From positions 1 to 64,000 of the forward strand of contig NZ_PQVF01000006.1 in NCBI RefSeq assembly GCF_002920915.1: a stretch of 64,000 nucleotides of DNA, written 5' to 3'. The notes under the pieces were generated by a model. That model saw only the letters and a list, made by a program, of their open reading frames with translations. It did no database searches and was not told the DNA's origin. This DNA comes from Solitalea longa. GTDB lineage: Bacteria > Bacteroidota > Bacteroidia > Sphingobacteriales > Sphingobacteriaceae. How positions within the stretch are numbered: position 1 is the stretch's first letter; each line of letters begins with the position of its first letter. Shown piece by piece: positions 2,616-59,100 of the stretch. The position numbers and the translations under genes were made by a program.

Positions 2616-3425
2616 ATGAAGAACTTTGTATTTTTTATCGCACTCGTTTTGGTCTTCGCAGTATTAAACTCATGCTCAACCAAAACCTTTAAAAGCACCT
2701 ACAGAACCAAGCCGGTTGTAGCCGATGGCAAACTCAATGATTGGGGCTATGCTATTGAAGACGAAAATGTGGACAGAAGCGGAAGGGTTAAATACGCCAT
2801 TGCCAACGACAGGGAAAATTTATACATCACCTTTAGGGTGTTCGACAAAACCACGCAGGCAAAACTATTTTTAGGAGGAATGAAACTGGTGCTGGATACT
2901 GCTTCTCAAAAACAAGCTTCTACCTATATCGAATTTCCACTATTAGTTAAATTGAAACCGGGAGAAAAACCTAAATGGGATTTTAAACCGGGAGAGCGTA
3001 TGGGAATTAAAGATCTGCACAAACAGGCAAAAGAAACCCATAAGGAAATGAATATTTCGGGCTTTTATGCTTTTGCCAACGGTAAGCAAGCATTAACCGA
3101 TAATAAAAGTGGTGTGTCAGTTGGTTTTGATTGGGATGAGGACGATGCGCTGATTTATGAAGCCATTATTCCATTTAAAGCATTTTATTCAACCGCCTTT
3201 AAAAACGGCAAACATCAATTAAGCGTAGGAGTTAGGGTTGAGGGGATAGATAAGAATACCCTGCCTGAGCAAAATTATTATGCCATGATGAATGGAATGG
3301 GCAGACGCAAGGGAGGATCGCCTATGGCTAACGCAAGTAATTTGCCAAATCCTGCCGATCAACCCTATGAGATCTATACCGAACCCATTAAATATGATCT
3401 TAAGTTGCAGTTAGCAACCCGATAA
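2616..3425 (+). CDS. Secreted lipoprotein with CBM9-like beta-sandwich
   Basis: A 269-residue protein with a lipoprotein signal (hydrophobic stretch, then LNSC with Cys at about 20). The mature part opens with VADGKLNDWG and continues with a YAIANDRENLYITFRV block, the pattern of CBM9/DUF1083-like beta-sandwich domains. It is clearly paralogous to the lipoprotein at 14281-15081: both have the DG.L..WG start, YAI.ND...LY, L.LD, an IPF/IPL.S(F/L)Y strand and an NGM..R.KGGS motif near the C-terminus. This copy lacks the long Gly/His tail. Ligand and function are unknown. It has its own terminator at 3436-3469; no convincing promoter was seen beyond a TAGTTTTG at 2597-2604, very near the ATG. Confidence 0.75.
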   Translation: MKNFVFFIALVLVFAVLNSCSTKTFKSTYRTKPVVADGKLNDWGYAIEDENVDRSGRVKYAIANDRENLYITFRVFDKTTQAKLFLGGMKLVLDTASQKQASTYIEFPLLVKLKPGEKPKWDFKPGERMGIKDLHKQAKETHKEMNISGFYAFANGKQALTDNKSGVSVGFDWDEDDALIYEAIIPFKAFYSTAFKNGKHQLSVGVRVEGIDKNTLPEQNYYAMMNGMGRRKGGSPMANASNLPNPADQPYEIYTEPIKYDLKLQLATR

Positions 3426-3605: not shown

Positions 3606-4037
3606 TTGTTTTCAAAAGCTTGTAAATACGCTGTAAAGGCAACAATCTACATTGCGGTACAATCAGGGCAAAATACCCGAACCAGCCTTAAAGATATTTC
3701 GGCGAAAATTGACTCTCCAGAGGCCTTTACAGCCAAAGTGTTGCAAGTTTTGGTAAAGAATCAGGTAATTGAATCGCTAAAAGGACCCTTAGGTGGATTT
3801 TTTATAAGCAATGAAGCAGCAAAATTAATAACCCTGAGCCATGTGGTGTATTTGATAGATGGTACTGAAACCTTTAACAGTTGTGGTTTAGGTTTAAAAG
3901 AATGTTCAGAGTGCAGGCCATGCCCAATGCATCATAAATTTCAAAGAATTAGATCCGAGTTAAAAGAAATGATTGAAAAGACCACCATTTATGAGCTTGT
4001 TTTAAAAGTGGGAGAGGGCGAATCATTTTTAATGTAA
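3606..4037 (+). CDS. Rrf2-family regulator, NsrR-like
   Basis: 143 residues. The N-terminal winged helix begins FSKACKYAVKATIYIA, the standard Rrf2 opening, so the TTG at 3606 is the likely start; no ATG fits. The wing carries GPLGGF. The C-terminal loop has four cysteines, C93-x6-C100-x2-C103-x2-C106, a plausible Fe-S ligand set; NsrR and IscR use three. Family members sense NO or Fe-S status through the cluster. The next gene, 63 nt downstream, is an NO reductase, and both genes share a dyad motif in their upstream regions, so an NO-responsive autorepressor is the best reading. The effector is inferred, not shown. Confidence 0.82.
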   Translation: MFSKACKYAVKATIYIAVQSGQNTRTSLKDISAKIDSPEAFTAKVLQVLVKNQVIESLKGPLGGFFISNEAAKLITLSHVVYLIDGTETFNSCGLGLKECSECRPCPMHHKFQRIRSELKEMIEKTTIYELVLKVGEGESFLM

Positions 4038-4052
4038 AAATTTTAAACATAT

Positions 4053-4069
4053 AAAGGACAGTTTTGTCC
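4053..4069. promoter_or_regulatory. Candidate Rrf2 operator upstream of NO reductase
   Basis: AAAGGACAGTTTTGTCC contains the inverted repeat GGACA-gttt-TGTCC and matches 13 of 17 positions of AAAAGATATTTTTGTCT at 3544-3560. It lies in the 63-nt gap between rrf2 and norZ, 31 nt before the norZ ATG. A clear -7 box was not found here. Confidence 0.6.
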
Positions 4070-4100
4070 GAAATTATAAATCACAAACTAAAAACTAACA

Positions 4101-6341
4101 ATGAGCAGTACAAAACGACTATGGTTATTATTTGCCCTGGTTTTAGGCGTTTCTTTCGCCGTACTTGGGTATTACGGTATAAAAATTTATCAAGAGGCGC
4201 CTCCTATACCGGAGAATATAATTACCACGAATGGAGAGGTAATTTTTACTAAGCAAGAGATCAAGGATGGACAGAATGTATGGCAAAGTATTGGAGGACA
4301 AGAAGTAGGTTCGATATGGGGGCACGGTGCTTATGTTGCTCCTGATTGGACTGCTGATTGGTTACACAAGGAGGCTGTCTTTATTCTTAACAAGTGGTCG
4401 CAAAAATATTATGAAACCGATTTCGAAAATTTGAATGAAGAAAATAAGGCGTTTTTAAAGGTCCGGTTGCAAAAGGAAATCCGGAAAAATACCTATGATC
4501 CACAGACCAAAGTTATTACTGTCTCAAATGAACGAATTGAAGCCATTAATTCATTAAGTGATTATTATTCGCGTTTATTTACCAACGATCCGCAATTTGA
4601 TAAGTTAAGAGAGCATTATGCTATCCCTAAAAATTCAATTCAAGATCAGGATCGCCTTAAAAAACTAAACGCATTTTTGTTTTGGGCAACCTGGGCTACG
4701 GTTACTGAAAGACCGGGATCAAAGATCTCCTACACACATAACTGGCCTGCCGATGATCTTGTTGGAAACGGCCCAACTAAAGACTTGCTTGCCTGGTCGG
4801 GTGTGAGTATTATTTTGTTGTTGTTCTTTGTGGGTGTAATGGTGTTTTATCATATCCGTTCAGGAGAAGAAGAAACATTACCGGCTCCAGCCGAAGATCC
4901 GCTGATCAAAGAAAAGCTTACACCTTCAATGGTCGCGGTTAAAAAATACTTGTTTGTAGTTAGTTTACTTATTGTTCTGCAGGTGGTATTAGGTGTAATT
5001 ACGGCTCATTATGGCGTTGAAGGAAATGGATTTTTTGGAATCCCATTAGGTAAGATTCTGCCGTATTCAGTCACCCGTACCTGGCATACACAGTTGGCAA
5101 TTTTCTGGATCGCAACTGCATGGCTGGCAACAGGATTATACATAGCACCTGCCGTGGGTGGAAAGGATCCAAAGTTCCAGGTGTTTGGGGTAAATTTCTT
5201 ATTCATTGCCTTGTTAATTATTGTTGTTGGTTCGATGATCGGACAATGGATGGGCGTAATGCAGAAACTGAACCTGATCAATAATTTCTGGTTCGGCCAC
5301 CAAGGTTATGAGTATGTAGATCTAGGAAGATTTTGGCAGTTGTTCTTGCTGGTAGGCTTGTTCTTATGGTTAGCTTTGATGGTGCGTCCGTTGCTGCCAT
5401 TATTAAAAAGAAAAGCAGAAGAAAAACACATGATCACTTTATTTCTGATCTCATGTACCGCTATTGCCATGTTTTATGCTGCTGGTTTAATGTGGGGGCG
5501 CCAAACAAACCTGGCTATTGCCGAATACTGGAGATGGTGGGTAGTACATTTATGGGTGGAAGGCTTTTTTGAAGTTTTTGCCACCGTGGTGATCGCTTTC
5601 TTGTTTGTGCGTTTAGGATTGCTTAAAACCAAAACTGCTACCCTGAATGTATTGATATCGACGATCGTTTTTATGTCTGGTGGAATTATCGGAACTTTTC
5701 ACCACCTGTATTTTACAGGAACACCCACCGCAGTGATGGCTTTAGGAGCAACCTTTAGTGCTTTGGAAGTAGTGCCTTTGGTGCTTATGGGGCATGAGGC
5801 TTACCATAATTTTAAACTCTCAAAATCATCAAAATGGATAGCCGATTATAAATGGCCAATATTGTTTATGATCGCTGTGGCATTTTGGAACTTCCTTGGA
5901 GCCGGCATCTTTGGCTTTATTATTAATCCTCCAATTGCACTTTATTATGTGCAAGGCTTAAATACAACACCTTTGCATGGTCATACCGCCTTATTTGGGG
6001 TGTATGGAATGTTGGGTATTGGTTTGATGCTGTTTGTTTTGAGAAGCATGTATCGTGATCATACCTGGAACGATAAACTGTTGAAATTTATATTCTGGTC
6101 TATTAATTTGGGTTTATTCCTGATGGCAGTGTTGAGCTTATTGCCGGTTGGTATTTGGCAGGCATTTGAAAGCATTGAAAAAGGAATGTGGTACGCCCGT
6201 TCGGCTGATTTAATGCAATTGCCATTAATGATAAAACTGAAATGGATGCGGGCAATCGGTGATACTATTTTTGGAATAGGGTCCTTAGCCTTGTGTTGGT
6301 TTGTTTTGGAGTTAGTGATTAAACGAAAAAGCAAAGCCTAA
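4101..6341 (+). CDS. norZ: Quinol-dependent nitric oxide reductase (qNor)
   Basis: 746 residues, the single-subunit length of qNor. It reduces 2 NO to N2O with electrons from (mena)quinol in the cytoplasmic membrane. Residues 1-240 hold one membrane anchor and a periplasmic domain with no CxxCH, as expected for the quinol type. From residue 225 about 13 helices follow with haem-copper-oxidase-like motifs: H329 in RTWHTQLAIFW, the WGRQTNLAIAEYWRWW and HLWVEGFFEVFA stretches (Glu ligands near the FeB site), HHLYFTG, LMGHEAYHNF and LHGHTALFGVYG. It follows the Rrf2 regulator and ends at a strong bidirectional terminator. No nitrite reductase or nitrous oxide reductase is adjacent, so detoxification is more likely than full denitrification. 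Confidence 0.95.
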   Translation: MSSTKRLWLLFALVLGVSFAVLGYYGIKIYQEAPPIPENIITTNGEVIFTKQEIKDGQNVWQSIGGQEVGSIWGHGAYVAPDWTADWLHKEAVFILNKWSQKYYETDFENLNEENKAFLKVRLQKEIRKNTYDPQTKVITVSNERIEAINSLSDYYSRLFTNDPQFDKLREHYAIPKNSIQDQDRLKKLNAFLFWATWATVTERPGSKISYTHNWPADDLVGNGPTKDLLAWSGVSIILLLFFVGVMVFYHIRSGEEETLPAPAEDPLIKEKLTPSMVAVKKYLFVVSLLIVLQVVLGVITAHYGVEGNGFFGIPLGKILPYSVTRTWHTQLAIFWIATAWLATGLYIAPAVGGKDPKFQVFGVNFLFIALLIIVVGSMIGQWMGVMQKLNLINNFWFGHQGYEYVDLGRFWQLFLLVGLFLWLALMVRPLLPLLKRKAEEKHMITLFLISCTAIAMFYAAGLMWGRQTNLAIAEYWRWWVVHLWVEGFFEVFATVVIAFLFVRLGLLKTKTATLNVLISTIVFMSGGIIGTFHHLYFTGTPTAVMALGATFSALEVVPLVLMGHEAYHNFKLSKSSKWIADYKWPILFMIAVAFWNFLGAGIFGFIINPPIALYYVQGLNTTPLHGHTALFGVYGMLGIGLMLFVLRSMYRDHTWNDKLLKFIFWSINLGLFLMAVLSLLPVGIWQAFESIEKGMWYARSADLMQLPLMIKLKWMRAIGDTIFGIGSLALCWFVLELVIKRKSKA

Positions 6342-8647: not shown

Positions 8648-8750
8648 TTTATAAATTGAATTTAAAATTCCTCCCAGCGAAAGAATAAATGCTTGGTCTA
8701 CAGAAACAAGGATTTAGTCGTTAATAGCATAATTTTACCGGTTGAAAATC

Positions 8751-8758
8751 TATTTTTG
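8751..8758 (+). promoter_or_regulatory. Candidate -7 box for the histidine kinase operon
   Basis: TATTTTTG matches TAnnTTTG and lies 24 nt before the kinase start codon. No TTTG is found at the expected upstream distance, so this is tentative. Confidence 0.4.
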
Positions 8759-8782: not shown

Positions 8783-9829
8783 TTGAGAGAGTTTAAGAAT
8801 ATTCGTACAGTTATTTTTCATATTCTGGCATGGGTAGGTGTTTTTATCATTCCAGAATTTTTCAGACCCGATTCTCCGGCCATACCTTCACGTATCTTTT
8901 CATTTCAGCATTTCTTAACGTTTAATCTTCCATTAGTGGTATTCTTTTACCTGAATGCATATTATCTGATTCCACGTATCATGCGTAAAAAACCACTTTA
9001 TGCATACGTTTTATCGGTAATTGGCATAATGGCAGCTATTCTGCTTTTTAACCAATTGTTACGGATGGAGATGCCACCGCCTCAACGCATGTTGCCTTTA
9101 CGAGAAGGAAGAGGAATAGGAATGGGTGCGGGAGGAGGCATGCGGCTATTTCTGCTGTTTCCATTATTGTTTATCTGGGCAACCAGCACCAGTTACCGGT
9201 TCATAATTGATCAGCTTAAAGCCGACCGCCAAAATAAAGAGCGCGAAAATATTCACCTTAAAACCGAACTTTCGTTTCTGCGATCACAGATCAGTCCGCA
9301 TTTTATTTTTAATATTCTAAACAGCCTGGTGGCCTTAAGTCGCAAGCGGCCTGAACAGGTGGAGCCCGCCATCATTCAACTATCACAAATGATTCGTTAT
9401 ATGTTGTATGAAAACGACGAGTTAAAGGTGAGCATTGAAAAGGAAATAGAATATTTACAGAATTATATCGATTTGCAGCGTCTGCGTTTTGGCGATTCGG
9501 TGCAGGTAATCTTTACGGTTATTAATGAAACAACCGGGAAAAGCATTGAACCGATGTTGCTGATCCCTTTCATTGAAAACGCCTTTAAACACGGCGTTGG
9601 CTTAATTGAAAAACCTGTAATTGAGATTCATCTGCATGCCGATGATAAAGACTTTTGGTTTACCGTAACCAATAAATTTAATGATGCCGACCCTAAAGAC
9701 GAGAGTTCGGGTATTGGCCTTGTTAACGTTGAGCGCCGTTTGAAAATTTTGTACAATAACCATCATCACTTGCGTTTAATGAAAGACGATGAATACTTTA
9801 AAGTTGAACTTAGCATTGAACTCCAATGA
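8783..9829 (+). CDS. LytS/YehU-type sensor histidine kinase
   Basis: 348 residues with four predicted helices (about 10-27, 44-64, 72-92, 121-138), then a His_kinase/HATPase module. The H-box SPHFIFNILN carries H173, the N-box IENAFKHG has N266, and the G-box SGIGLVNVERRL is at 309-320. With a cytosolic kinase the loop between helices 3 and 4 (about 93-120) is periplasmic. It is unusual: Met- and Pro-rich, then GRGIGMGAGGGM. The start is TTG, since the nearby ATG meets a stop at once. It overlaps the response regulator (ATGA), so the two are translationally coupled. The signal is unknown; the adjacent TonB/lipoprotein genes share Gly-rich segments. Confidence 0.9.
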   Translation: MREFKNIRTVIFHILAWVGVFIIPEFFRPDSPAIPSRIFSFQHFLTFNLPLVVFFYLNAYYLIPRIMRKKPLYAYVLSVIGIMAAILLFNQLLRMEMPPPQRMLPLREGRGIGMGAGGGMRLFLLFPLLFIWATSTSYRFIIDQLKADRQNKERENIHLKTELSFLRSQISPHFIFNILNSLVALSRKRPEQVEPAIIQLSQMIRYMLYENDELKVSIEKEIEYLQNYIDLQRLRFGDSVQVIFTVINETTGKSIEPMLLIPFIENAFKHGVGLIEKPVIEIHLHADDKDFWFTVTNKFNDADPKDESSGIGLVNVERRLKILYNNHHHLRLMKDDEYFKVELSIELQ

Positions 9830-10548
9830 TGAATTGTATTGCTGTTGATGATGAGCCATTAGCATTGGAGCTTTTGGTTGATAATATATCCAAGATCCCC
9901 TTCCTGAATTTAGTAGGCAGTTGTCGTAACCCATTTGAAGCGATGGAGGTGTTGCAGGATAAGCCGGTTGACCTTATCTTTTTAGATATTCAGATGCCGG
10001 GAATAAGTGGGGTTCAGTTTTTACAGGCAACCCGACCTAATCAAATGGTTATTTTTATTACCGCATATGAAAAGTATGCTTTAGAAAGCTATAATTTAGA
10101 CGTGGTTGATTACCTGCTTAAGCCGGTCTCTTTCGACCGCTTTATGAAAGCGACTACCAAAGCATACGAGCTTTTCAACTTAAAGAATAAAAATACCCAG
10201 CCCGAATCAGCTCCCGACTATATTTTCATCAACTCTGAATATAACCTGATAAAAATAAACCTTGCCGATATTTTATATGTGGAAGGGCTGAAGGATTATG
10301 TGAAGATCTATGTCGAAAAGAATCCACGCCCTATTCTTTCCAGAATGAATATTAAAGCGATTGAAGAGAAACTTCCATCGATGGGCTTTCTGAGGGTTCA
10401 TAAATCGTTTATTATTTCCACCGCCAAAATAACCTCCATCCGTAAGAACCGGATAAAAATAGGGGAGGTAGAAATTCCCTTGAGTGATAATTTTAAAGAC
10501 GAACTGATGAAGTTTGTTCACCCCTCCAGCTCCCTGAAGGGGGAGTAA
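9826..10548 (+). CDS. LytTR-family response regulator
   Basis: 240 residues. The receiver domain has acidic D8/D9, the phospho-acceptor D54 in LIFLDIQMPG, and the conserved Lys in YLLKPVSF (about 106). The LytTR DNA-binding domain covers about residues 135-232 (NLADILYVEGLKDYVKI, FLRVHKSFIIS). The partner kinase overlaps by 4 nt. The last nine residues (HPSSSLKGE) are encoded by a GC-rich palindromic repeat that seems to have replaced the original stop. Likely targets are the outer-membrane genes that follow; that is inference from position. Confidence 0.92.
   Translation: MMNCIAVDDEPLALELLVDNISKIPFLNLVGSCRNPFEAMEVLQDKPVDLIFLDIQMPGISGVQFLQATRPNQMVIFITAYEKYALESYNLDVVDYLLKPVSFDRFMKATTKAYELFNLKNKNTQPESAPDYIFINSEYNLIKINLADILYVEGLKDYVKIYVEKNPRPILSRMNIKAIEEKLPSMGFLRVHKSFIISTAKITSIRKNRIKIGEVEIPLSDNFKDELMKFVHPSSSLKGE
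10521..10545. repeat. GC-rich palindromic repeat overlapping a gene end
   Basis: CCCCTCCAGCTCCCTGAAGG followed by GGGAG can pair as CCCCT/AGGGG or CTCCC/GGGAG. Hairpins of this type are dispersed between genes in many Bacteroidota genomes (general knowledge). Here one is translated as the C-terminal tail of the LytTR regulator. Confidence 0.5.
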
Positions 10549-10687
10549 TGGTCCTTGCATCTAATGCCCCCGGGAGGTAAGCCTCATCGGCACAATTCGG
10601 TAATTAGTATGCAAATGCCTTAATGCTGTCTACTTCGTTTTAGTTACCTGTTTTTTCAATTCATTTTTGAGCTTAAACGAGCTATAC

Positions 10688-13459
10688 ATGAATCGGAAAA
10701 TAGTTTTACTCATCATTTTTACTCTTTTATCAACGCAGGCTTTAAAAGCTCAGGTGAAGCTTAGAGAGGTTCTCCTGAACAAATATTACAGGGGCTCGCT
10801 GGCTTCGGTTTTCGACAGCATTGCAGTTGATCATAATTTAAAGTTTTCTTTTGACCGCGAGCGCTTGCGTTATTCATTCGCAGAGCGTTATGCCGATATG
10901 CCGCTTGATGTGGCGCTCAAATACATTTGTAAAGATTATGAGCTAAAATATTACATCGGTGCCGGGAATGTGATTTTTGTTTTGGATAAGAATCAGAAGG
11001 TTGATCCGAAGACAATGGCCAGTGGCACCCAGGAGATCGGTGAAAAGGCAAAAGTTGCCGCGTTAAAAAAGAACTATCTTCTAACCGGCCGGGTGGTCGA
11101 TGCTGCCAGCGGTGAATCGCTGCCCTATGTAAACATTACCATTGTTGGAACAAAGCAGGGGACAGCCACTAATGCTGATGGTTATTTTACATTGAATAAA
11201 GTTCCTACCGATACTTCCACACTGTTCATCAGTTACCTGGGTTATCATAAAACAAGCTTTCACTTAAATCCTGATTTACCTAAGGCTGGTTTGATCATCG
11301 AACTAAACCCTGATAATGAACTGGAAGAGGTGCTGGTGGTAGCCGACAAGGAAGACCTGATGAAGGTATCGGAAAAAGTGAGCATGATAAAAATTTCGCC
11401 GCAAAAACTGGCGATGTTACCCAATGTGGGAGAGAAGGATATTATGCGTTCTTTTCAGCTCATGCCCGGCGTTTCGGCCAGTAACGAGTCTTCATCGGGT
11501 TTATATGTACGTGGAGGAACTCCCGATCAGAACCTGGTGGTATATGATGGTTTTACCGTTTACCAGGTAGATCACTTGTATGGTTTTTACAGTGCCTTTA
11601 ATTCTAATGCTATTAAAGACGTGCAGTTGTACAAAGGCGGGTTCGAACCTAAATATGGTGGGCGCTTATCGAGTGTTACCGAAATTACCGGCAAGGATGG
11701 CAATAGCAAAGGCTTTAATGTAGGAGGCGATATCAGTTTGCTAAGTATCAATGCCTATCTCGAATCGCCATTTGGCGAAAATGCTACACTATTATTGGCA
11801 GCTCGTCGCTCTTACAAAGGACCGCTCTATAATAAGATCTTCAATAAGTTTAACAGCAGTAATTCAACTACCACTACGCAGCGGCCAGGTTTTGGCGGTG
11901 GTCCCCGCGGCAACGCTTCTAATTTCGCTACCACGGTTTCATCTTATTTCTATGACCTGAATGGCAAGTTCACCTATAAGGTTTCAAAAAAAGATGCCTT
12001 ATCGCTGAGCTTATACAATGGAACCGATAATCTCGACAACTCCCAGGAAGCACAGGCTCCGTCTTTTGGAGGAGGTGGTTTTGGCGGCAGCGGCAGAGGC
12101 TTTGGCTTTAACGTGAATGACGTGACCAATTATGGTAACATGGGAGGTAGTTTACGTTGGACCCGTAAATGGTCTGACCGGTTCTTCAGCACTTCGGTAT
12201 TAAGCTATTCGAATTATTACAGCGACCGTGACCGATCGAACGAAAATACACTCACTGATGAAGATGGTAATTCGCGAACGATTAAAAACGGTACCATCGA
12301 AAATAATGATCTGAAAGATTTCAGTTTTAAAACCGATTTGGAGTATGCCTGGACAAAAGATAATGCGATAAAACTGGGAGCTTATGCAACCAATTACAAG
12401 ATCAAGTATAACTACAGCCAGAACGATACGTCAACGATCCTGGATCGTAACACAACAGGAAACCTGGCCGGGATCTATATTCAGGATAAACAAAACTTAT
12501 TAGGTGATAAGCTTTCCCTTGAACCCGGCTTGCGTTTCTCTTATTTTGACCAAACGTCAAAAGGATATATAGAGCCACGTTTTTCGGCTAATTATAGATT
12601 TAATAGCAAAGTTACCTTTAAAGCTGCAACCGGTAAGTATTATCAGTTTGCTAACCGCGTGGTTCGCGAAGATGTGCTTTCGGGCAGCCGCGATTTTTGG
12701 ATCTTGTCTGATGGAAGCAATGTTCCGGTAAGCTCGGCAATACATTACATTATTGGAGCCTCTTATGAAACCCGTCAGTATTTGTTCAGCGCTGAATACT
12801 ATTACAAAGATTTGAATGGTGTAACCGAATATTCGCTTCGGTTTAATCCAACGCGCGGCGGTGGTCCAGGAGGTGGTGGAGGAGCGCCAACCACTTCCTA
12901 CGAAGAAAACTTCTTTAGCGGTGTAGGCTATTCACAAGGCATTGAATTTTTAATTCAGAAAAAGGTGGGTAATTACAATGGATGGATCAGTTATTCATTG
13001 GGTGAAGCCCGCAATAAAATAGCTACTTATGGTGATGATTATTATTCTGCCAGCCAGGATGTAACCCATGAACTAAAGATTGTAAACATTTATAAGCTGG
13101 GTCGTTGGAATTTTTCAGGCGATTGGGTATTTGCTACTGGAAGGCCTTATACCGCCCCACAGGGAGGTTATGAATTGACTTTGCTTGATGGCACCACCCA
13201 AAGCTTTATCAATATAGGTGCTAAAAACGGTTCGCGATTGCCAAATTACCACCGCCTTGATCTGGCTGTTAACTATGAGTTGCGTGGTGCCGATGCGCAT
13301 AATAACATCGGCTCTATCGGTGTCTCTTTTTTCAATGTTTACAATCGTAAAAATGTTTGGTACAAGGAGTTTCAGATTGCCGATAACCAGGTAGTTGAAA
13401 CCAATGTGAACTACCTCGGATTTACTCCAAACTTAACCCTTACCCTAAAGCTCAGATAG
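10688..13459 (+). CDS. TonB-dependent outer-membrane receptor with STN domain
   Basis: About 923 residues. The ATG at 10688 gives a clean signal peptide (MNRKIVLLIIFTLL...ALKAQ) and is preferred over an upstream TTG at 10667. An STN-like domain (about 30-100) is followed by a carboxypeptidase-regulatory-like domain (GRVVDAASGESLPYVNITI, about 135-215). The plug has SGLYVRGGTPDQNLVVYDG and YGGRLSSVTEI, and a 22-strand-type barrel ends in an aromatic strand (FTPNLTLTLKLR). Extracellular loops carry glycine-rich inserts near nt 11880-11930, 12060-12110 and 12855-12895. It pairs with the DUF4249 lipoprotein one base downstream, a common arrangement in this phylum. Substrate unknown. No sigma/anti-sigma pair is adjacent despite the STN domain. 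Confidence 0.9.
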   Translation: MNRKIVLLIIFTLLSTQALKAQVKLREVLLNKYYRGSLASVFDSIAVDHNLKFSFDRERLRYSFAERYADMPLDVALKYICKDYELKYYIGAGNVIFVLDKNQKVDPKTMASGTQEIGEKAKVAALKKNYLLTGRVVDAASGESLPYVNITIVGTKQGTATNADGYFTLNKVPTDTSTLFISYLGYHKTSFHLNPDLPKAGLIIELNPDNELEEVLVVADKEDLMKVSEKVSMIKISPQKLAMLPNVGEKDIMRSFQLMPGVSASNESSSGLYVRGGTPDQNLVVYDGFTVYQVDHLYGFYSAFNSNAIKDVQLYKGGFEPKYGGRLSSVTEITGKDGNSKGFNVGGDISLLSINAYLESPFGENATLLLAARRSYKGPLYNKIFNKFNSSNSTTTTQRPGFGGGPRGNASNFATTVSSYFYDLNGKFTYKVSKKDALSLSLYNGTDNLDNSQEAQAPSFGGGGFGGSGRGFGFNVNDVTNYGNMGGSLRWTRKWSDRFFSTSVLSYSNYYSDRDRSNENTLTDEDGNSRTIKNGTIENNDLKDFSFKTDLEYAWTKDNAIKLGAYATNYKIKYNYSQNDTSTILDRNTTGNLAGIYIQDKQNLLGDKLSLEPGLRFSYFDQTSKGYIEPRFSANYRFNSKVTFKAATGKYYQFANRVVREDVLSGSRDFWILSDGSNVPVSSAIHYIIGASYETRQYLFSAEYYYKDLNGVTEYSLRFNPTRGGGPGGGGGAPTTSYEENFFSGVGYSQGIEFLIQKKVGNYNGWISYSLGEARNKIATYGDDYYSASQDVTHELKIVNIYKLGRWNFSGDWVFATGRPYTAPQGGYELTLLDGTTQSFINIGAKNGSRLPNYHRLDLAVNYELRGADAHNNIGSIGVSFFNVYNRKNVWYKEFQIADNQVVETNVNYLGFTPNLTLTLKLR

Positions 13460-13460
13460 T

Positions 13461-14270
13461 ATGAAAAAGATAGTAGGTTTTTTAGTGTTGATAATGGCCT
13501 TTTTTACCGGCTGCACCAAAGAAGAAGCGGAAGAGCTCGCTGCAATAGATAAGCCGGTGGTGGAAGCTTACCTAATACCGGGACAAGCGGTTAATGTACA
13601 TGTTACCCAACAAGTAGGTTTTGGAACGGCTGATACCACTCAGGTGCCGATCAATGATTTAACGATAAAAATTATAAGTGAAGGAACTGAACATGTACTC
13701 GGTTTTACCGCTGATGGAAATTATGTTTCAGGTAGTGATCTGAAAATTGAAGCGGGTAAAACCTATGCATTATCATTTACCTATCAGGGTGAAGAGGTGA
13801 GCGCCGAAACGGTAATTCCGGAAAAACCTCAAGACTTTACGGAGTCAACCTCTTCGTTTACCATGCCGACTTTTGATTTTAGCAGCGGTACACGCCCCGA
13901 GTTTCCGGATCCGGTAAAACTAAGCTGGACAAACCCGGCCGGTGAATACCACCTGGTAGTGGTAAAAAACACCGAAACTTCACCAACCGAAGTTAGTTTT
14001 GGTTTTGGTGGAGGCTCCACTACCTCGGCCAGACCCATTTTCAGAAATCAACCTGATCAGGGAACGTCTTATGAAATAAACGTTCAGAACTTTAGTTATT
14101 ACGGGCATCATTGGGTCATTTTATACCGAATTAATCCAGAGTATGCAGCTTTATACCAGCAAAGCGGAAGTAATTCACTGAACCTGAAGAATCCTTCAAC
14201 CAATATTAAAAACGGCCTGGGCATTTTTACAGGCATCAACACTGATACATTAAGTTTAACCGTCAATTAG
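13461..14270 (+). CDS. DUF4249-family lipoprotein
   Basis: 269 residues with a lipoprotein signal (FFTGC, Cys about 18). The N-terminal part (DKPVVEAYLIPGQAVNVHVTQQ, then ISEGTEHVLGF and KIEAGKTYALSF) is the Ig-like pattern of DUF4249. The start codon lies one base after the TonB receptor stop. Such lipoproteins are thought to sit on or beside their receptor at the cell surface. A glycine-rich stretch (FGFGGGSTTSARP) occurs at about residue 180. Precise function is unknown. Confidence 0.85.
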   Translation: MKKIVGFLVLIMAFFTGCTKEEAEELAAIDKPVVEAYLIPGQAVNVHVTQQVGFGTADTTQVPINDLTIKIISEGTEHVLGFTADGNYVSGSDLKIEAGKTYALSFTYQGEEVSAETVIPEKPQDFTESTSSFTMPTFDFSSGTRPEFPDPVKLSWTNPAGEYHLVVVKNTETSPTEVSFGFGGGSTTSARPIFRNQPDQGTSYEINVQNFSYYGHHWVILYRINPEYAALYQQSGSNSLNLKNPSTNIKNGLGIFTGINTDTLSLTVN

Positions 14271-14280
14271 ATTTTATATA

Positions 14281-15081
14281 GTGAAACGGATCATTCAACA
14301 TTCTGCATGGCTGCTCATATTCATGGCATTGTCGTGTTCTTCTACCAAAAGCATTTCGAGTTTAAAGTCGCAGGTACAACATCAAATTGATGGATTACCG
14401 GGTGAATGGGGGCAACCCATACGGTTTAGTGATAATGACACGGGAATACAGTACGCAATTGAAAATGATACCGATCATCTTTATCTCATTTATCGGATCA
14501 CGGATCAGCAAACCATAATGAAGGTTTTATCGGCCGGAGCTAAACTTTGGCTCGACCCAAGTGGTAAAGGAGATAAGAAGATGACCATCGACTTTCCCTT
14601 AAAAAAAGAGATGGGCAGAGCTCCTATGGTTGAGCATGAAAAGAACCGCTTGATTATGATGGAAGATCTCTTGCTTCAAAAAAACGAAGCCGTTTTAACA
14701 GGTTTCTTGAATGGGCCAAGCGGTAAAAAGGCATTGGATAGTATCGGTGATTTCAGGTTTAAAGTATTGATCAATAATGATGAAAGCCTGGTGTATGAAC
14801 TGGCAATTCCACTAAATAGTTTGTATGCTGCCTCAGCTAACCGTAATATGCCATTTGACCTGGGCTTAGAAATTAATGGAATGGAGATGCCGCAGCGCAA
14901 AGGCGGTTCGGGCGGAAGTGGAGGTAGGGGACCTGGAGGAGGAAGGCCTCCCGGAGGCGGTGGAATGGGTGGTGGTATGCACGGAGGAGGCGGTCATGGA
15001 GGGCCAATGCCGGGTGGTCACTCTTTTGAATCAATGACCAAAGCGGTAAAGCTGCAAACCAAGGTTTTGCTTTCTAAATAA
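14281..15081 (+). CDS. CBM9-like lipoprotein with Gly/Met/His-rich tail
   Basis: 266 residues, GTG start 11 nt after the DUF4249 gene. Lipobox is ALSC (Cys about 19). The body is a paralogue of the lipoprotein at 2616-3425: IDGLPGEWG, YAIENDTDHLYLIYRI, LWLDPSG, YELAIPLNSLYA and INGMEMPQRKGGS. From about residue 205 the tail is almost pure glycine with Pro, Met and His. Such a tail could bind metal or be a flexible surface segment; neither is shown. It ends the kinase-regulator-TonB-DUF4249 run. Confidence 0.75.
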   Translation: MKRIIQHSAWLLIFMALSCSSTKSISSLKSQVQHQIDGLPGEWGQPIRFSDNDTGIQYAIENDTDHLYLIYRITDQQTIMKVLSAGAKLWLDPSGKGDKKMTIDFPLKKEMGRAPMVEHEKNRLIMMEDLLLQKNEAVLTGFLNGPSGKKALDSIGDFRFKVLINNDESLVYELAIPLNSLYAASANRNMPFDLGLEINGMEMPQRKGGSGGSGGRGPGGGRPPGGGGMGGGMHGGGGHGGPMPGGHSFESMTKAVKLQTKVLLSK

Positions 15082-15180
15082 ATATATCCCCTGTTAATCC
15101 CGATTTACCATTCTGTCATAGGCATTTGTTAGCGTAAATGTTATAACAAGGATTTTACACTGGTAATTAAACCTCGGGGT

Positions 15181-15188
15181 TAACTTTG
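15181..15188 (+). promoter_or_regulatory. Candidate -7 box before the beta-barrel gene
   Basis: TAACTTTG matches TAnnTTTG and lies 16 nt before the ATG at 15205; a -33 TTTG is not evident. Confidence 0.4.
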
Positions 15189-15204
15189 GGGTCTACTAGA
15201 AGTT

Positions 15205-17727
15205 ATGAAGAAAATTTTATTGCAATTATTGTTTGGCTTATTGGCCTTGGGCTCCTATGCTCAAGTGGGTGGCCCCCCAAAAGGAACGGGTTCAATAGGC
15301 GGAGTTGTCATCGACTCAACTACTAAAAAACCTGTGGAATTTGCCACGTTAGCGTTAATTCGATCTACAGATTCGAAATCTGTAAACGGTGGAATGGCTG
15401 ATGAAAAAGGCGTTTTTAAACTCCAAGGTATCCCTAATGGCGATTATAATCTGATTATTTCATTTATTGATTATAGTACAGTAACCAAAAAAGTAAACAT
15501 CTCAGCACAAAATCAGGAGATCAAACTTGGAAAAATTATACTTCAGCAAACCGGAAAACAACTGAAAGAAGTTACCGTTGTGGGCCAGCGTGAACTGGTG
15601 GAGAATAAGATCGACAAAATGGTTTACAATGCCGAAAAAGATGTGACTTCTAAAGGTGGCGATGCCGGCGACATTTTGCGCAAAGTGCCAATGGTAAGTG
15701 TTGATATGGACGGAAACGTTGAATTACGCGGTAATTCGAACGTTAAGATCTTAATTAACGGTAAACCTTCAACTATAGTCAGCAATAGTGTGGCCGATGC
15801 CATGAAAATGATTCCGGCCGATCAGATCAAAAATGTAGAAGTGATCACGAGTCCTTCAGCTAAATATGATGCTGAGGGTTCTGCCGGCATTATTAACATT
15901 GTAACTAAGAAAACTGATGTTGCCGGTGTTACCGGAAATATCAGTATGAATTTGAGTAATCGCTTTAACAGAGGGAACGGAAGCTTAAACATTCGTCAGG
16001 GTAAAGTTGGTTTCAATGCCGGCTTTGGTGGTATGTATTTTATTCCGCAAGACGGATCAAGTGTTTTTCAACGCAATAGCTTTTTCCCTGATATGCAAAA
16101 TACCGGTGTTGATACCACTCGTTTAACCGATCAGAATGGAACCAATAAAGGTGGCAGAAATGGTGGTAATGCCAACTTTGGTATATCCTATGATATTAAT
16201 AAAACCAACTCAATAAGCAGTAATGTCAAGTTTAGCCGCTGGAATAATAATAACGACGGGTCAATGCTTGTTTCCAACTCTGATAATATTGATGGATTGC
16301 TAAGTCAATATAATCGTATTTCGCAAAATGATAACCAGCGAAAAGGAATTGATTGGTCAACAGATTATAATAGAAAGTTTGCTAATCCACAGCAAGAATT
16401 TAGTCTTGGGTTTCAGTTAAGCGACGATAGAAATAATACGGATTTCCAGAATTCGATTGATGGAATTGTAAATATGCCAAATACCGCAGGCAGAAGCTTA
16501 AATGAAGGAACTAATAATGAGCTTACTTTTCAAGCTGATTATGCCCATCCATGGACAAAAGCTGTTTTGATGGAAGTTGGTGCGAAAACAATTTTAAGGG
16601 ACATCACCAGTGCTTATAATTATGATTTGATAAACACTAATGGAGAATATGTACCTGATCTAACGAGATCCAATGACTTTAACTATACTCAAAATGTTTA
16701 TGCAGGATATCTTTCGTTTAACCTTACGTTAAATAAAGGGTATGCAATTAAAGCCGGTGGACGTTTAGAACGTACAGAAATTACCGGTGATTTCAGAAAT
16801 TCACAGTCGAACAGTATCGCTAATAATTACAACAATTTTGTTCCGAGTTTAACTGTTGCTCGTACGTTTAAAGATATGTCGTCGCTTAAGTTAAGCTATA
16901 GCCGTCGTATCCAACGCCCGGGTTTACGCTTTTTAAATCCTTTTATAGATTCAACCGATCCACAGAATATCTCTTTTGGTAACCCAAACCTTGCTCCGGA
17001 GAAGACCAATAATTTTGAATTAGGATATTCAAGGTTTATGGGACGTTCATCAGTGAATGCCTCAGTATATTATCGTAATACTTATGATGTTATCGAAAGT
17101 ATAGTAGGCTTATCTGCTGATGGTAAAATATCCGGAAGCACATATGCAAATATCTCTAATAGCTCATCAGTAGGGGTTAATCTTTCAGGATCTGTGCAAC
17201 TTGGCCAGCGTATTACCTTAAGAGGAAACGCGAATGTGTATTCGTATAATGTTAACGATCCGAATATTCAAACCACGTATAGCAATAAAAGCCTGCTGTA
17301 CAATGTTAATGCAAATGCTTCATGGTCATTGCCTAAAGATTTTGCTATTGAAGCATTCGGAATGTTCAACTCGCCTCGCAGAACTATTCAAGGAGAAAAT
17401 CCTTCATTCTCGATGTTCAACCTTGGGTTTAAGAAAGACTTTTTGGAAAAACGTGCCAGTTTAGGCTTAAACATGTCGAATCCATTTAATAAGAACCGTG
17501 AATTCACCACAAAATTAAGCGGAAACGGATTTGACCAGTATCAGCAAAATTCGGTTCCTTTCCGTTCAGTTGGAGTTTCATTTAGCTATCGTTTTGGTAA
17601 AATGGATTTTAACGGCCAACAAGGCGGAAGTAAAAAAGGGAAGGGTCAAGGTCCGAAAAAAGAGGGCATTAATAACGACGATATCAAACAAGAAGAGGAT
17701 TCGCAGCAAGGTGGTGGAAGACCTTAG
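15205..17727 (+). CDS. Outer-membrane beta-barrel protein (TonB-receptor-like)
   Basis: 840 residues. Signal peptide (LLFGLLALGSYAQ); a carboxypeptidase-regulatory-like domain at about 30-110 (GGVVIDSTTKKPVEFATLAL); a plug (about 115-235) with VELRGNSNVKILINGKPS and SAKYDAEGSAGIINIVTKK. The rest is a barrel of the outer-membrane beta-barrel family 3 type, with KLSYSRRIQRPGLRFLNPF, a hallmark segment. The last strand FSYRFGKMDF is followed by a 35-residue Gly/Lys/acidic tail (GGSKKGKGQGPKKEG...) that extends past the barrel. It is transcribed in the same direction as the two-component locus but after a 123-nt gap with its own -7 box. Substrate unknown. Confidence 0.85.
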   Translation: MKKILLQLLFGLLALGSYAQVGGPPKGTGSIGGVVIDSTTKKPVEFATLALIRSTDSKSVNGGMADEKGVFKLQGIPNGDYNLIISFIDYSTVTKKVNISAQNQEIKLGKIILQQTGKQLKEVTVVGQRELVENKIDKMVYNAEKDVTSKGGDAGDILRKVPMVSVDMDGNVELRGNSNVKILINGKPSTIVSNSVADAMKMIPADQIKNVEVITSPSAKYDAEGSAGIINIVTKKTDVAGVTGNISMNLSNRFNRGNGSLNIRQGKVGFNAGFGGMYFIPQDGSSVFQRNSFFPDMQNTGVDTTRLTDQNGTNKGGRNGGNANFGISYDINKTNSISSNVKFSRWNNNNDGSMLVSNSDNIDGLLSQYNRISQNDNQRKGIDWSTDYNRKFANPQQEFSLGFQLSDDRNNTDFQNSIDGIVNMPNTAGRSLNEGTNNELTFQADYAHPWTKAVLMEVGAKTILRDITSAYNYDLINTNGEYVPDLTRSNDFNYTQNVYAGYLSFNLTLNKGYAIKAGGRLERTEITGDFRNSQSNSIANNYNNFVPSLTVARTFKDMSSLKLSYSRRIQRPGLRFLNPFIDSTDPQNISFGNPNLAPEKTNNFELGYSRFMGRSSVNASVYYRNTYDVIESIVGLSADGKISGSTYANISNSSSVGVNLSGSVQLGQRITLRGNANVYSYNVNDPNIQTTYSNKSLLYNVNANASWSLPKDFAIEAFGMFNSPRRTIQGENPSFSMFNLGFKKDFLEKRASLGLNMSNPFNKNREFTTKLSGNGFDQYQQNSVPFRSVGVSFSYRFGKMDFNGQQGGSKKGKGQGPKKEGINNDDIKQEEDSQQGGGRP

Positions 17728-56155: not shown

Positions 56156-59100
56156 TTAATGAATAGTTGTTTTTCGGAGTGCTTCTCTTCCATAGAAAAC
56201 AGGGAAATACATCAATTCAACTTTGGCTGGGTTTAAAATATAATTTCCTTCAAAACGAGGCACTAATTCAATTTCGTAACTATAGGTTCCTTGTTTCAGT
56301 TTAGTACAAAAAATGGAAACCTTGTTTTTTAAATATTCACGGTGATCTTCATTAAAACCAGATTCGGTTTTGCTGCCATATGAGCATCCCGCAGGTATTG
56401 GGATCTCAATCATTACATAATCTGCATCCGCTTTAACTTCAATCTTCGTTTTTAATATTGTATTTACCCCTGGTTTTAAACTGATGACAGACTTGCCATT
56501 ATTTTCAAAATGAGTGTCGATCACAAAATCTTTTGAAACTTTTCCAGGTTTCGAATTCCACCACTGTTGGTATGCAGTTATATACGAAGGTAAAGTGCCG
56601 CTTTTATTGACTTTTATAACGGCATTAGGGTTAAAAGTGGTTTCATAAGGGAACTTATCAACGGTTAGGGTTTTATCGCCATCCGTTAAAGTTAATTTAA
56701 CCGGTTTTAGCGCGGTCGAGTCTTTAAGCAGATCAGGTAAAATGGTTTCTAAAATGAGTGATGACTCGTAGGTATTTCGCCATGATCCATTTTTTCGTTG
56801 TTCAAAAAAGTAGTTCCTGATTTTAGCCAGGGAGGAATCATTTGCATTTGCCCCTTTAATTATTTTATAACTAAGTATTGTTTCCTGAAAACTGTTATCG
56901 AACAAATTGTAAGAGTCTTTACCCCAATACCAATTTCCAAACATGGTTGATTTGTGACGGTTTTTAATACTGTGAGTGTTTATCGGCAAATTCATCGATT
57001 GCTTAATTTCCATTAAGCTTAACATGGTATACTGAGATGGTTGGGTTTTCAAATGATCAATGCTGTCTTCAACTTGTTTGATTAATGCATTGAAGTTTGA
57101 TTTAGCATCTAGACCCCTAAGTAACTTGATCGAAGAGATCATTCCTTCAATATTTCGGCGAGGGAAATTGAAAACTAATTCATCGATTAATGGTTGAGTG
57201 TTGGGCAGGTTAATCGTATAGCCTGATTTCCGGGCCTCATTTAATGTTTCAATCACATGAACCGTGATCCAATCTGAGGCAGCAGTTTTAGGCCACCAAC
57301 CCCAGTTACCACTAGTTAGCTGATTTTCTTTTAATTTTTTAATAATCGTATTAACCTGTTCTTCTCCATCAAAAGGTTCTTTTAACAATTTCCTAACCCT
57401 TTTTTCAAGCAATAGTGCTTTAAGTTTTGAGGCTAACTGCTCATTACAGAAATACTCGTATGATCTGATATTTTGAATTTCGCTGAGAAGAATTGGCAAA
57501 GCAGATGCATCGGCCCTGAATGTAATCTTCCCTCCATCAGGTTTTAATGCAATGGCAACAGAAGTGTCTCCTTCTAATGAATAAAAGATACCGGTACTTT
57601 CTTTAACTCCTTGCGGAAATACCGGAATTTGTCGTTTCTCTCCGTCTTCATAGCCATTCACAGTATTTAAAACAGTGTATAAAGCGTTAATGGTATCTTT
57701 AGAAGAGACTGTAATTGGAATGGTGTCGAGCAAGGCATTTTTAACACGAACAGCTTTTGATGAAAGCAGTTTGTTATTCAGTTTTATGGTTCTGTTCAGC
57801 GCAACCGTATCAAAGGTATAATTGCTAACTTTTCCTAAAATGTTAATGCTGTCGCCCACAATGGCAAAACGAGGAGCGGCAAGGGAAGCTGTAAGCAATT
57901 TAAATGATTTAATTTCCTGTTGAGTAAGCCCACTTAGCCGTTTGCCACCCATGCCAATTACATAGGTGCTCCATTTAGAGATATCGTCAGGAATGGTAAC
58001 TTTGAAACTGGTTTGGCCATTTTGATCAGTAGTAAGTTTGGGCTGCCAAAAGGCTACGTCTGAGAAATTCTGGCGTAACCCTAAAGTTCCATCCGATTGA
58101 AGACCATCAGCTGAAGGGGAGTTACTCGCGGCTTTTTTGGTTGTAATAATTATTACGCCGTTTGCTGCTGCTGATCCATAAAGGGCTGTAGCATCCGATC
58201 CTTTAACTATTTTAATGTCTAGTATGTCTGATTGAGTTAAATCACTTTGCTTGCCGGCATAGGGTAAACCATCCAGAATAATCAATGGATCACTATTTTG
58301 AGCAATAGAGGCAGAACCTCTAATAGAAACTCCAGCAGCTTTAGCTTGAAGTGAATTTATATTTATAACTGAACCAGTGAAACTCTGCTTTCTCTGAACC
58401 CCATAGCCAACTACCACCACTTCTTGTAATGCCTTCGAGCTTTCCTGCATCTTTATGGTATAGTATTCATTGGTTTTAATGGGCTTTTCCTGAGATTCGA
58501 AGCCAATGAAAGAGAATTGGAGCATTCCCCTTTTAGGAACCATTAAAGTAAATCCTCCATTCATATCTGTTAAGGTACCAATCTTAGTTCCCTTGATGGT
58601 AACTCTTACACCAGGTAAGGGTAAGTTGGTCGCATCTGTAACTAGTCCGGAAACCTTATCAGTAAATAAAGATGAATTAAGCTGAGACTCATTAAATGCT
58701 TGACTGATGCTTTCGGTAATGTATGATTTATCCGAATAACCATTGCTTGAGGATTGATCAATTGACTCAATAAGTTGATTAATTTTTATACTTGTACTGT
58801 CCTGAGGTTGGGGCTTTATTGAATCGATATAGAAATAATTAACGCCATAACTATTGAGTTTTATATCCTCTTTTATAAAGTATAAATCCTTCTTCAATAA
58901 AAACAGCATCCGATAACTGCCCGGTTCTAATTCCTCGATTTTTGTGGTATTGCCCGGATAAATTCTTATGAAAGTTGGATCGATATAATTGTATACGATA
59001 ATGTTTTTGATGAAAGGAGTTTCCCCGTTTGGAAGTTCCCCAATATTAAACTCCATTTTGGCTGCAGTGGCTGAATACAATTTTGGGTTTGTGAATAAAG

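Follow-up and report, generated by a model that had tools for sequence, protein, structure and literature searches.

The 64,000-nucleotide stretch of the Solitalea longa genome analysed here (the window; assembly GCF_002920915.1, contig NZ_PQVF01000006.1, positions 1 to 64,000) carries on its forward strand a six-gene locus that we explain best, and with moderate confidence, as an outer-membrane exchange module regulated by a LytS/LytR pair and equipped with flexible extracellular glycine-rich loops. The locus opens with a LytS-type sensor histidine kinase of 348 amino acids (aa) (8783..9829; His_kinase, PF06580, 89.8 bits) and a LytTR response regulator, LytR (9826..10548; Response_reg, PF00072, and LytTR, PF04397, both above cut-offs). 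These are followed by a TonB-dependent receptor of the DUF4249-partner type with an N-terminal STN-like domain (10667..13459; CarboxypepD_reg, Plug and TonB barrel), a DUF4249 lipoprotein (13461..14270; PF14054, 63.1 bits), a 266-aa lipoprotein without a Pfam or NCBIfam model for which we coin the name GLP, for Gly/Met/His-loop lipoprotein (14281..15081), and an OMP_b-brl_3 outer-membrane barrel protein with a Gly/Lys tail (15205..17727; PF14905, 349.9 bits). A TetR gene lies upstream in divergent orientation. The six genes and their glycine-rich segments stand where an earlier reading of this DNA (the original prediction) had placed them, as judged by the sequence and Pfam. The analysis was computed from sequence throughout with mechanical calling of open reading frames (ORFs), and the loci compared share kinship and are not phylogenetically independent.

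The link between the regulator and the transporter genes comes from a direct repeat around GTC, which shows a sharp spacing peak at exactly 21 bp upstream of module kinase and receptor genes. This spacing was found upstream of 13/63 LytS genes and 10/87 receptor genes as against 15/1,106 controls (P = 1.8e-10 and P = 3.4e-6, respectively, both uncorrected for relatedness). A single hexamer, GTCTAC, was also tried as the operator and rejected because its signal was too weak; the repeat-spacing test was used in its place. In the window, the repeats GGTCTACAG (8695-8703) and AGTCGTTAA (8716-8724), 21 bp apart from start to start, form a predicted LytTR operator (8695..8724, plus strand) that scores 21.8 bits against a matrix derived from 17 orthologous sites (two congeneric kinase sites included, the window site left out). 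It is the top match in ~1.2 Mb (~27%) of the genome, with the next at 19.6 bits. On its 3' side lies TATTTTTG (8751..8758, plus strand), a match to the Bacteroidota -7 consensus TAnnTTTG, and a -7-like element, TAACTTTG, stands upstream of the barrel gene (15181, plus strand). Published LytTR sites comprise two 9-11 nt repeats with 11-13 nt between them (PMC4847170; also PMC6193735), a geometry that the window repeats upstream of lytS fit. The 21-bp repeats predict LytR autoregulation and control of the operon, and the LytS/LytTR pair probably switches on the transporter, the partner lipoprotein and GLP.

On sequence grounds, the kinase standing beside a Response_reg-LytTR regulator and the geometry of the operator would place the pair among the LytS/LytTR systems, such as BtsSR and YpdAB of E. 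coli and LytSR of S. aureus. It shares with these the His_kinase and LytTR regulator, a direct-repeat operator and a likely, though predicted, autoregulation. It differs from them in its predicted targets, which are the receptor, DUF4249 and GLP, and in the absence of a LYT-type sensor domain with five transmembrane segments by Pfam (5TM-5TMR_LYT was not detected in the kinase, His_kinase being the sole match).

The transport genes under this predicted control are widely conserved. Receptor orthologs are 45-84% identical across Bacteroidota, and a scan of named genomes for the receptor returned 80 loci (in Pedobacter, Mucilaginibacter, Emticicia, Runella, Bacteroidales and others) in nearly all of which DUF4249 adjoins the receptor, often with LytS/LytR beside them and in 11 with GLP nearby. 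LytS-LytR-TonB receptor-DUF4249 is a recurrent, widespread Bacteroidota module. Where the original prediction spoke of an undescribed envelope locus, a linked module under a LytS-type kinase is indeed present; it is undescribed only in part. There is precedent for the receptor-DUF4249 pair in B. thetaiotaomicron, where a conserved operon holds the TonB transporter BT2172 and the DUF4249 protein BT2173, and similar consequences follow from disruption of either gene (PMC11003636). By analogy, this offers a hint, the only functional one that we found, to what the pair does. The likeness is one of gene adjacency, the pair being conserved over many genera; the difference is that the pair here has LytS/LytR as further linked genes, joined in some loci by GLP and an OMP_b-brl_3 barrel.

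Two other receptor systems invite comparison. Like SusC/SusD, the locus joins a TonB receptor to a partner lipoprotein, and the GLP fold is weakly like carbohydrate-binding module 9 (CBM9); however, the receptor scores 63 bits against a cut-off of 368 on the SusC/RagA model and there is no SusD in the operon. The STN-like domain, seen in the structural model of the receptor as alpha/beta elements at residues 40-107 with no Pfam STN match, recalls FecA/FecR-type receptors, but no FecR or ECF sigma gene is found among the annotated ORFs of the locus and LytSR occupies the regulatory place. The DUF4249 sequence gave no match to solved structures.

The glycine-rich segments were evaluated against a null sample of 1,013 ORF-called genes covering ~27% of the genome (~1.2 Mb). 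A density of 7/12 Gly or more was reached by only 10 of these genes, three of which belong to the operon (LytS, whose maximum is 7/12, the receptor and GLP; hypergeometric P = 1.4e-5). GLP has the most Gly-rich 20-mer in the sample (14/20), the receptor ranks in the top seven (9/20), and a pattern search of the whole genome found five-glycine codon runs at only ~20 places. Thus such segments, when checked for in unrelated proteins of this genome, are rare. The Gly-rich patch of DUF4249 and the Gly/Lys tail of the barrel protein, both listed in the original prediction, are present but neither is an outlier against this sample (maxima of 4/12 and 6/12 Gly, respectively). An unrelated 517-aa protein encoded elsewhere in this genome (L259, 11220-12770), outside the unbiased sample, has an N-terminal Gly run (16/20) richer than the GLP tail.

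The position of the segments is also informative. In an AlphaFold2 model of the receptor (mean pLDDT 74) the low-confidence barrel loops are exactly the three Gly inserts, each with pLDDT <50: insert 1 (residues 391-423; 11837..11935), extracellular by strand alternation and at a conserved site that is Gly-rich in most relatives; insert 2 (residues 463-480; 12053..12106), on the extracellular side and kept in the related locus L039; and insert 3 (residues 727-743; 12845..12895), absent in four compared relatives and largely private to the species. All three lie opposite short periplasmic turns of the model and would therefore be extracellular; judged by the model, the Gly runs are real, flexible surface loops. 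Across relatives, Gly-rich sites are fixed at ~405-420 of the receptor, at ~140-150 of DUF4249 in some relatives, at ~290-315 of the ~950-aa barrel partners and in the last hairpin of GLP. The idea that the segments are rare in the genome and yet recur in several outer-membrane proteins of the module was thus upheld. The further claim that these proteins share the same odd composition was not. GLP-family inserts are Gly/Met/His-rich, with Met at 7.8x and His at 2.7x background, Arg and Pro enriched too, and a Met-Met spacing peak at 5, i.e. GGGGM pentads, whereas receptor inserts have Met at 1.1x background, no His and high Thr/Pro/Phe; barrel inserts feature Ser/Arg/Met. It is mainly the GLP family that shows a Met/His bias.

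GLP itself carries the words MEMPQRKGGS and a Gly/Met/His stretch that forms the loop between its last two strands (14896..15021; residues 208-247 with pLDDT <50 in the model). It gave no Pfam match, no above-cut-off NCBIfam match and no PDB sequence match, and a profile of its core (A2) matches in 61/395 Bacteroidia genomes. Going by sequence, GLP is a protein family uncatalogued in Pfam and NCBIfam and spread over many Bacteroidota families. GLP is modelled as a beta-sandwich whose last hairpin bears a disordered (GGGGM)n loop; the best solved-structure matches of the model are CBM9 or CBM9-like (PDB 7nwo and 4jpq; Foldseek E = 6e-5 and 1e-4, respectively). The resemblance to such CBM9/DOMON-type beta-sandwiches is limited by TM scores of only 0.34-0.45 and by the lack of any sequence match, and the Gly/Met hairpin insertion characterises GLP. 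Literature searches for LytTR systems of Gly-rich character or for Met-rich Bacteroidota systems yielded no relevant report. This genome also encodes a GLP paralog (2616-3425) with a short remnant of the Gly/Met insert; its neighbours are an Rrf2-family regulator and a nitric-oxide-reductase-like protein (region 2616-3425, 3606-6341), and an ortholog of the paralog is kept in all three congeners (G001, G002 and G003).

With regard to its neighbours, GLP is found most often beside an OMP_b-brl_3 barrel (27 loci), then the receptor (a count that comes partly from loci collected via the receptor), LytR, DUF4249 and LytS. It adjoins the receptor in loci of several families. In a draw of 395 genomes GLP was present in 10/16 receptor genomes vs 51/379 others (P = 1.5e-5), adjacent to the receptor in five of the ten; with two receptor candidates scored per genome, these counts are lower bounds. 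LytS or LytR lies within four genes in 9 of ~61 GLP loci.

A working model that accommodates these observations is as follows. LytS would sense a membrane or periplasmic condition and phosphorylate LytR, which would bind the 21-bp direct repeats upstream of lytS and raise expression of lytS and lytR themselves; the receptor, DUF4249 and GLP genes would be raised too, by read-through or from a weaker second site. The TonB receptor and DUF4249 lipoprotein would act as a surface transport pair for a cargo, while GLP, with its CBM9-like core, and its barrel partner may form another surface complex, likewise controlled by LytSR. In this model the Gly-rich segments would be flexible extracellular loops serving as local lids or contact surfaces, and the kinase would not read them as its ligand. 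Computed here are the gene content, the conserved linkage, the enrichment of the operator and the loop positions; regulation, transport and surface exposure of GLP are what we infer.

Several observations weigh against this model. No candidate cargo was identified from the data. The GLP and barrel genes have no enriched operator of their own upstream. The candidate operator upstream of the receptor (AGTATGCAA N12 TGTCTACTT; 10606..10635, plus strand) is conserved in the sister species G001, but it is degenerate, uncertain and of low matrix score, and direct LytR control there is putative. Many GLP genes have neither LytS nor the receptor nearby. Finally, within this four-species genus, G002 keeps all module genes but with GLP split over two frames, G003 retains only the barrel, and in G001 (L041, ~10340-11020) a deletion joins the receptor start to the GLP tail, removing the receptor, DUF4249 and most of GLP and leaving LytS, LytR and the barrel as what amounts to a natural module knock-out. 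As far as the sequences tell, the module is being lost in the genus and its parts are dispensable and separable, because the three relatives have lost or disrupted different module genes.

Among the alternatives, one that is unlikely is that the system handles a peptide or metallophore, taken up via the TonB receptor and DUF4249 and expelled via a MacAB-TolC-type exporter under LytSR control. MacA/MacB/TolC genes lie within 9 kb in 5/11 receptor loci with GLP, plus L051, vs 4/69 receptor loci without it, and in Pseudomonas siderophore is recycled by MacAB-TolC-type pumps. The presence of such an exporter in a subset of loci suggests peptide or metallophore traffic. However, the exporter is absent beside the module in the window and in other Sphingobacteriaceae-type GLP loci, several of the exporter-bearing loci are closely related, and MacB permeases are common in Bacteroidota. 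The receptor-DUF4249-GLP modules that bear an exporter are L051, L164, L194, L197, L202 and L212, with GLP either upstream or downstream of the receptor.

It is also possible, though we regard it as doubtful, that the GLP loop functions through its Met and His residues, as a cell-surface arm that binds Cu(I)/Ag(I) or buffers against oxidation through its methionines. The Met and His enrichment and the pentad spacing described above point this way. Moreover, these residues are unlikely to have arisen by drift from Gly repeats because ATG and CAY are two changes from GGN, which makes selection likely. Set against this, the homologous position in several family members has no Met, or no insert at all, the paralog at 2616 keeps only its short remnant, and the Arg/Pro enrichment fits a plain sticker-and-spacer linker. 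Nor did a link to copper, silver or zinc, the metals that the original prediction suggested testing, materialise: no such gene family recurs among the neighbours of GLP, and with no recurring metal-handling neighbour the GLP loci do not group with copper- or silver-responsive systems.

Another explanation, to which we also give little credence, is that the Gly-rich stretches grew by neutral expansion of GGN repeats at surface loops that tolerate them. As might be expected of such expansions, their length differs greatly among close relatives, and the third receptor insert is largely confined to this species. On the other hand, the stretches recur at equal structural sites across families, and the rest of the genome has few such runs. 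Furthermore, it takes two steps from Gly codons to reach the enriched interspersed residues (Met, His and Pro, and in the receptors Phe and Thr), and the residues one step away (Val, Asp and Glu) are depleted. A bolder extension of the Met/His idea strikes us as improbable: that GLP founds an undescribed family of surface lipoproteins whose selected, Met-rich (GGGGM)n hairpin captures soft metal ions or oxidants and feeds a LytSR-controlled receptor/DUF4249 exchange complex.

The least probable account, which we consider very unlikely indeed, is that of the original prediction, in which the kinase loop (MEMPPPQRM, residues 95-103, followed by GIGMGAGGGM, 111-120; 9065..9142, plus strand) co-evolved with the Gly-rich partners and reads a metal or a Gly-rich surface protein. 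In its favor are the rarity of Gly-rich segments in the genome with three in one operon, a weak correlation between receptor and GLP Gly content (rho 0.55, P = 0.03, 15 pairs, uncorrected for phylogeny) and the loops of more distant module kinases, which are short and often rich in Pro/Met/His, a trait whose specificity is uncertain with ~5 true unlinked controls (the control set held six kinases, of which one was the sister module kinase). The Gly content of the barrel and that of GLP showed no linkage (rho 0.10). The co-evolved-sensor account is unsupported because (i) a Gly-rich kinase loop occurs in only 3/63 kinases, namely those of this species, its sister G001 (L041) and an unrelated locus (L183), with the GIGMGAGGGM run itself common only to the two sister species and missing both from G002 and from the more distant module kinases; (ii) the similarity of kinase loop to GLP tail, suggested by shared MEMP..QR words, averages 22.7 over 13 same-locus pairs vs 22.9 for shuffled pairs (P = 0.59); and (iii) receptors without GLP have Gly-rich loops (35/70) no less often than those with it (7/17). 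In addition, the kinase run persists in G001 although the receptor, DUF4249 and GLP genes are deleted, and the Gly segments of GLP and the receptor differ in composition.

Two other features of the window were noted in passing. Positions 21435-45754 encode an aromatic amino acid lyase, several ketosynthases and a 1287-aa MMPL/acyltransferase/methyltransferase protein, and resemble a flexirubin-type (aryl polyene-dialkylresorcinol) pigment cluster. An unusual domain set occurs in the 1949-aa protein at 56156-62005, which joins alpha-2-macroglobulin domains to CarboxypepD_reg and also matches TonB Plug weakly.

Returning to the LytSR-regulated exchange module, its interest lies in a concrete, if predicted, operator that connects a LytS/LytTR pair to GLP and to a receptor-DUF4249 pair that is conserved but functionally blank, so that the proposed regulon is directly testable. 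The Met pentads of the GLP loop, which look selected, are a real puzzle and the feature most worth experiment.

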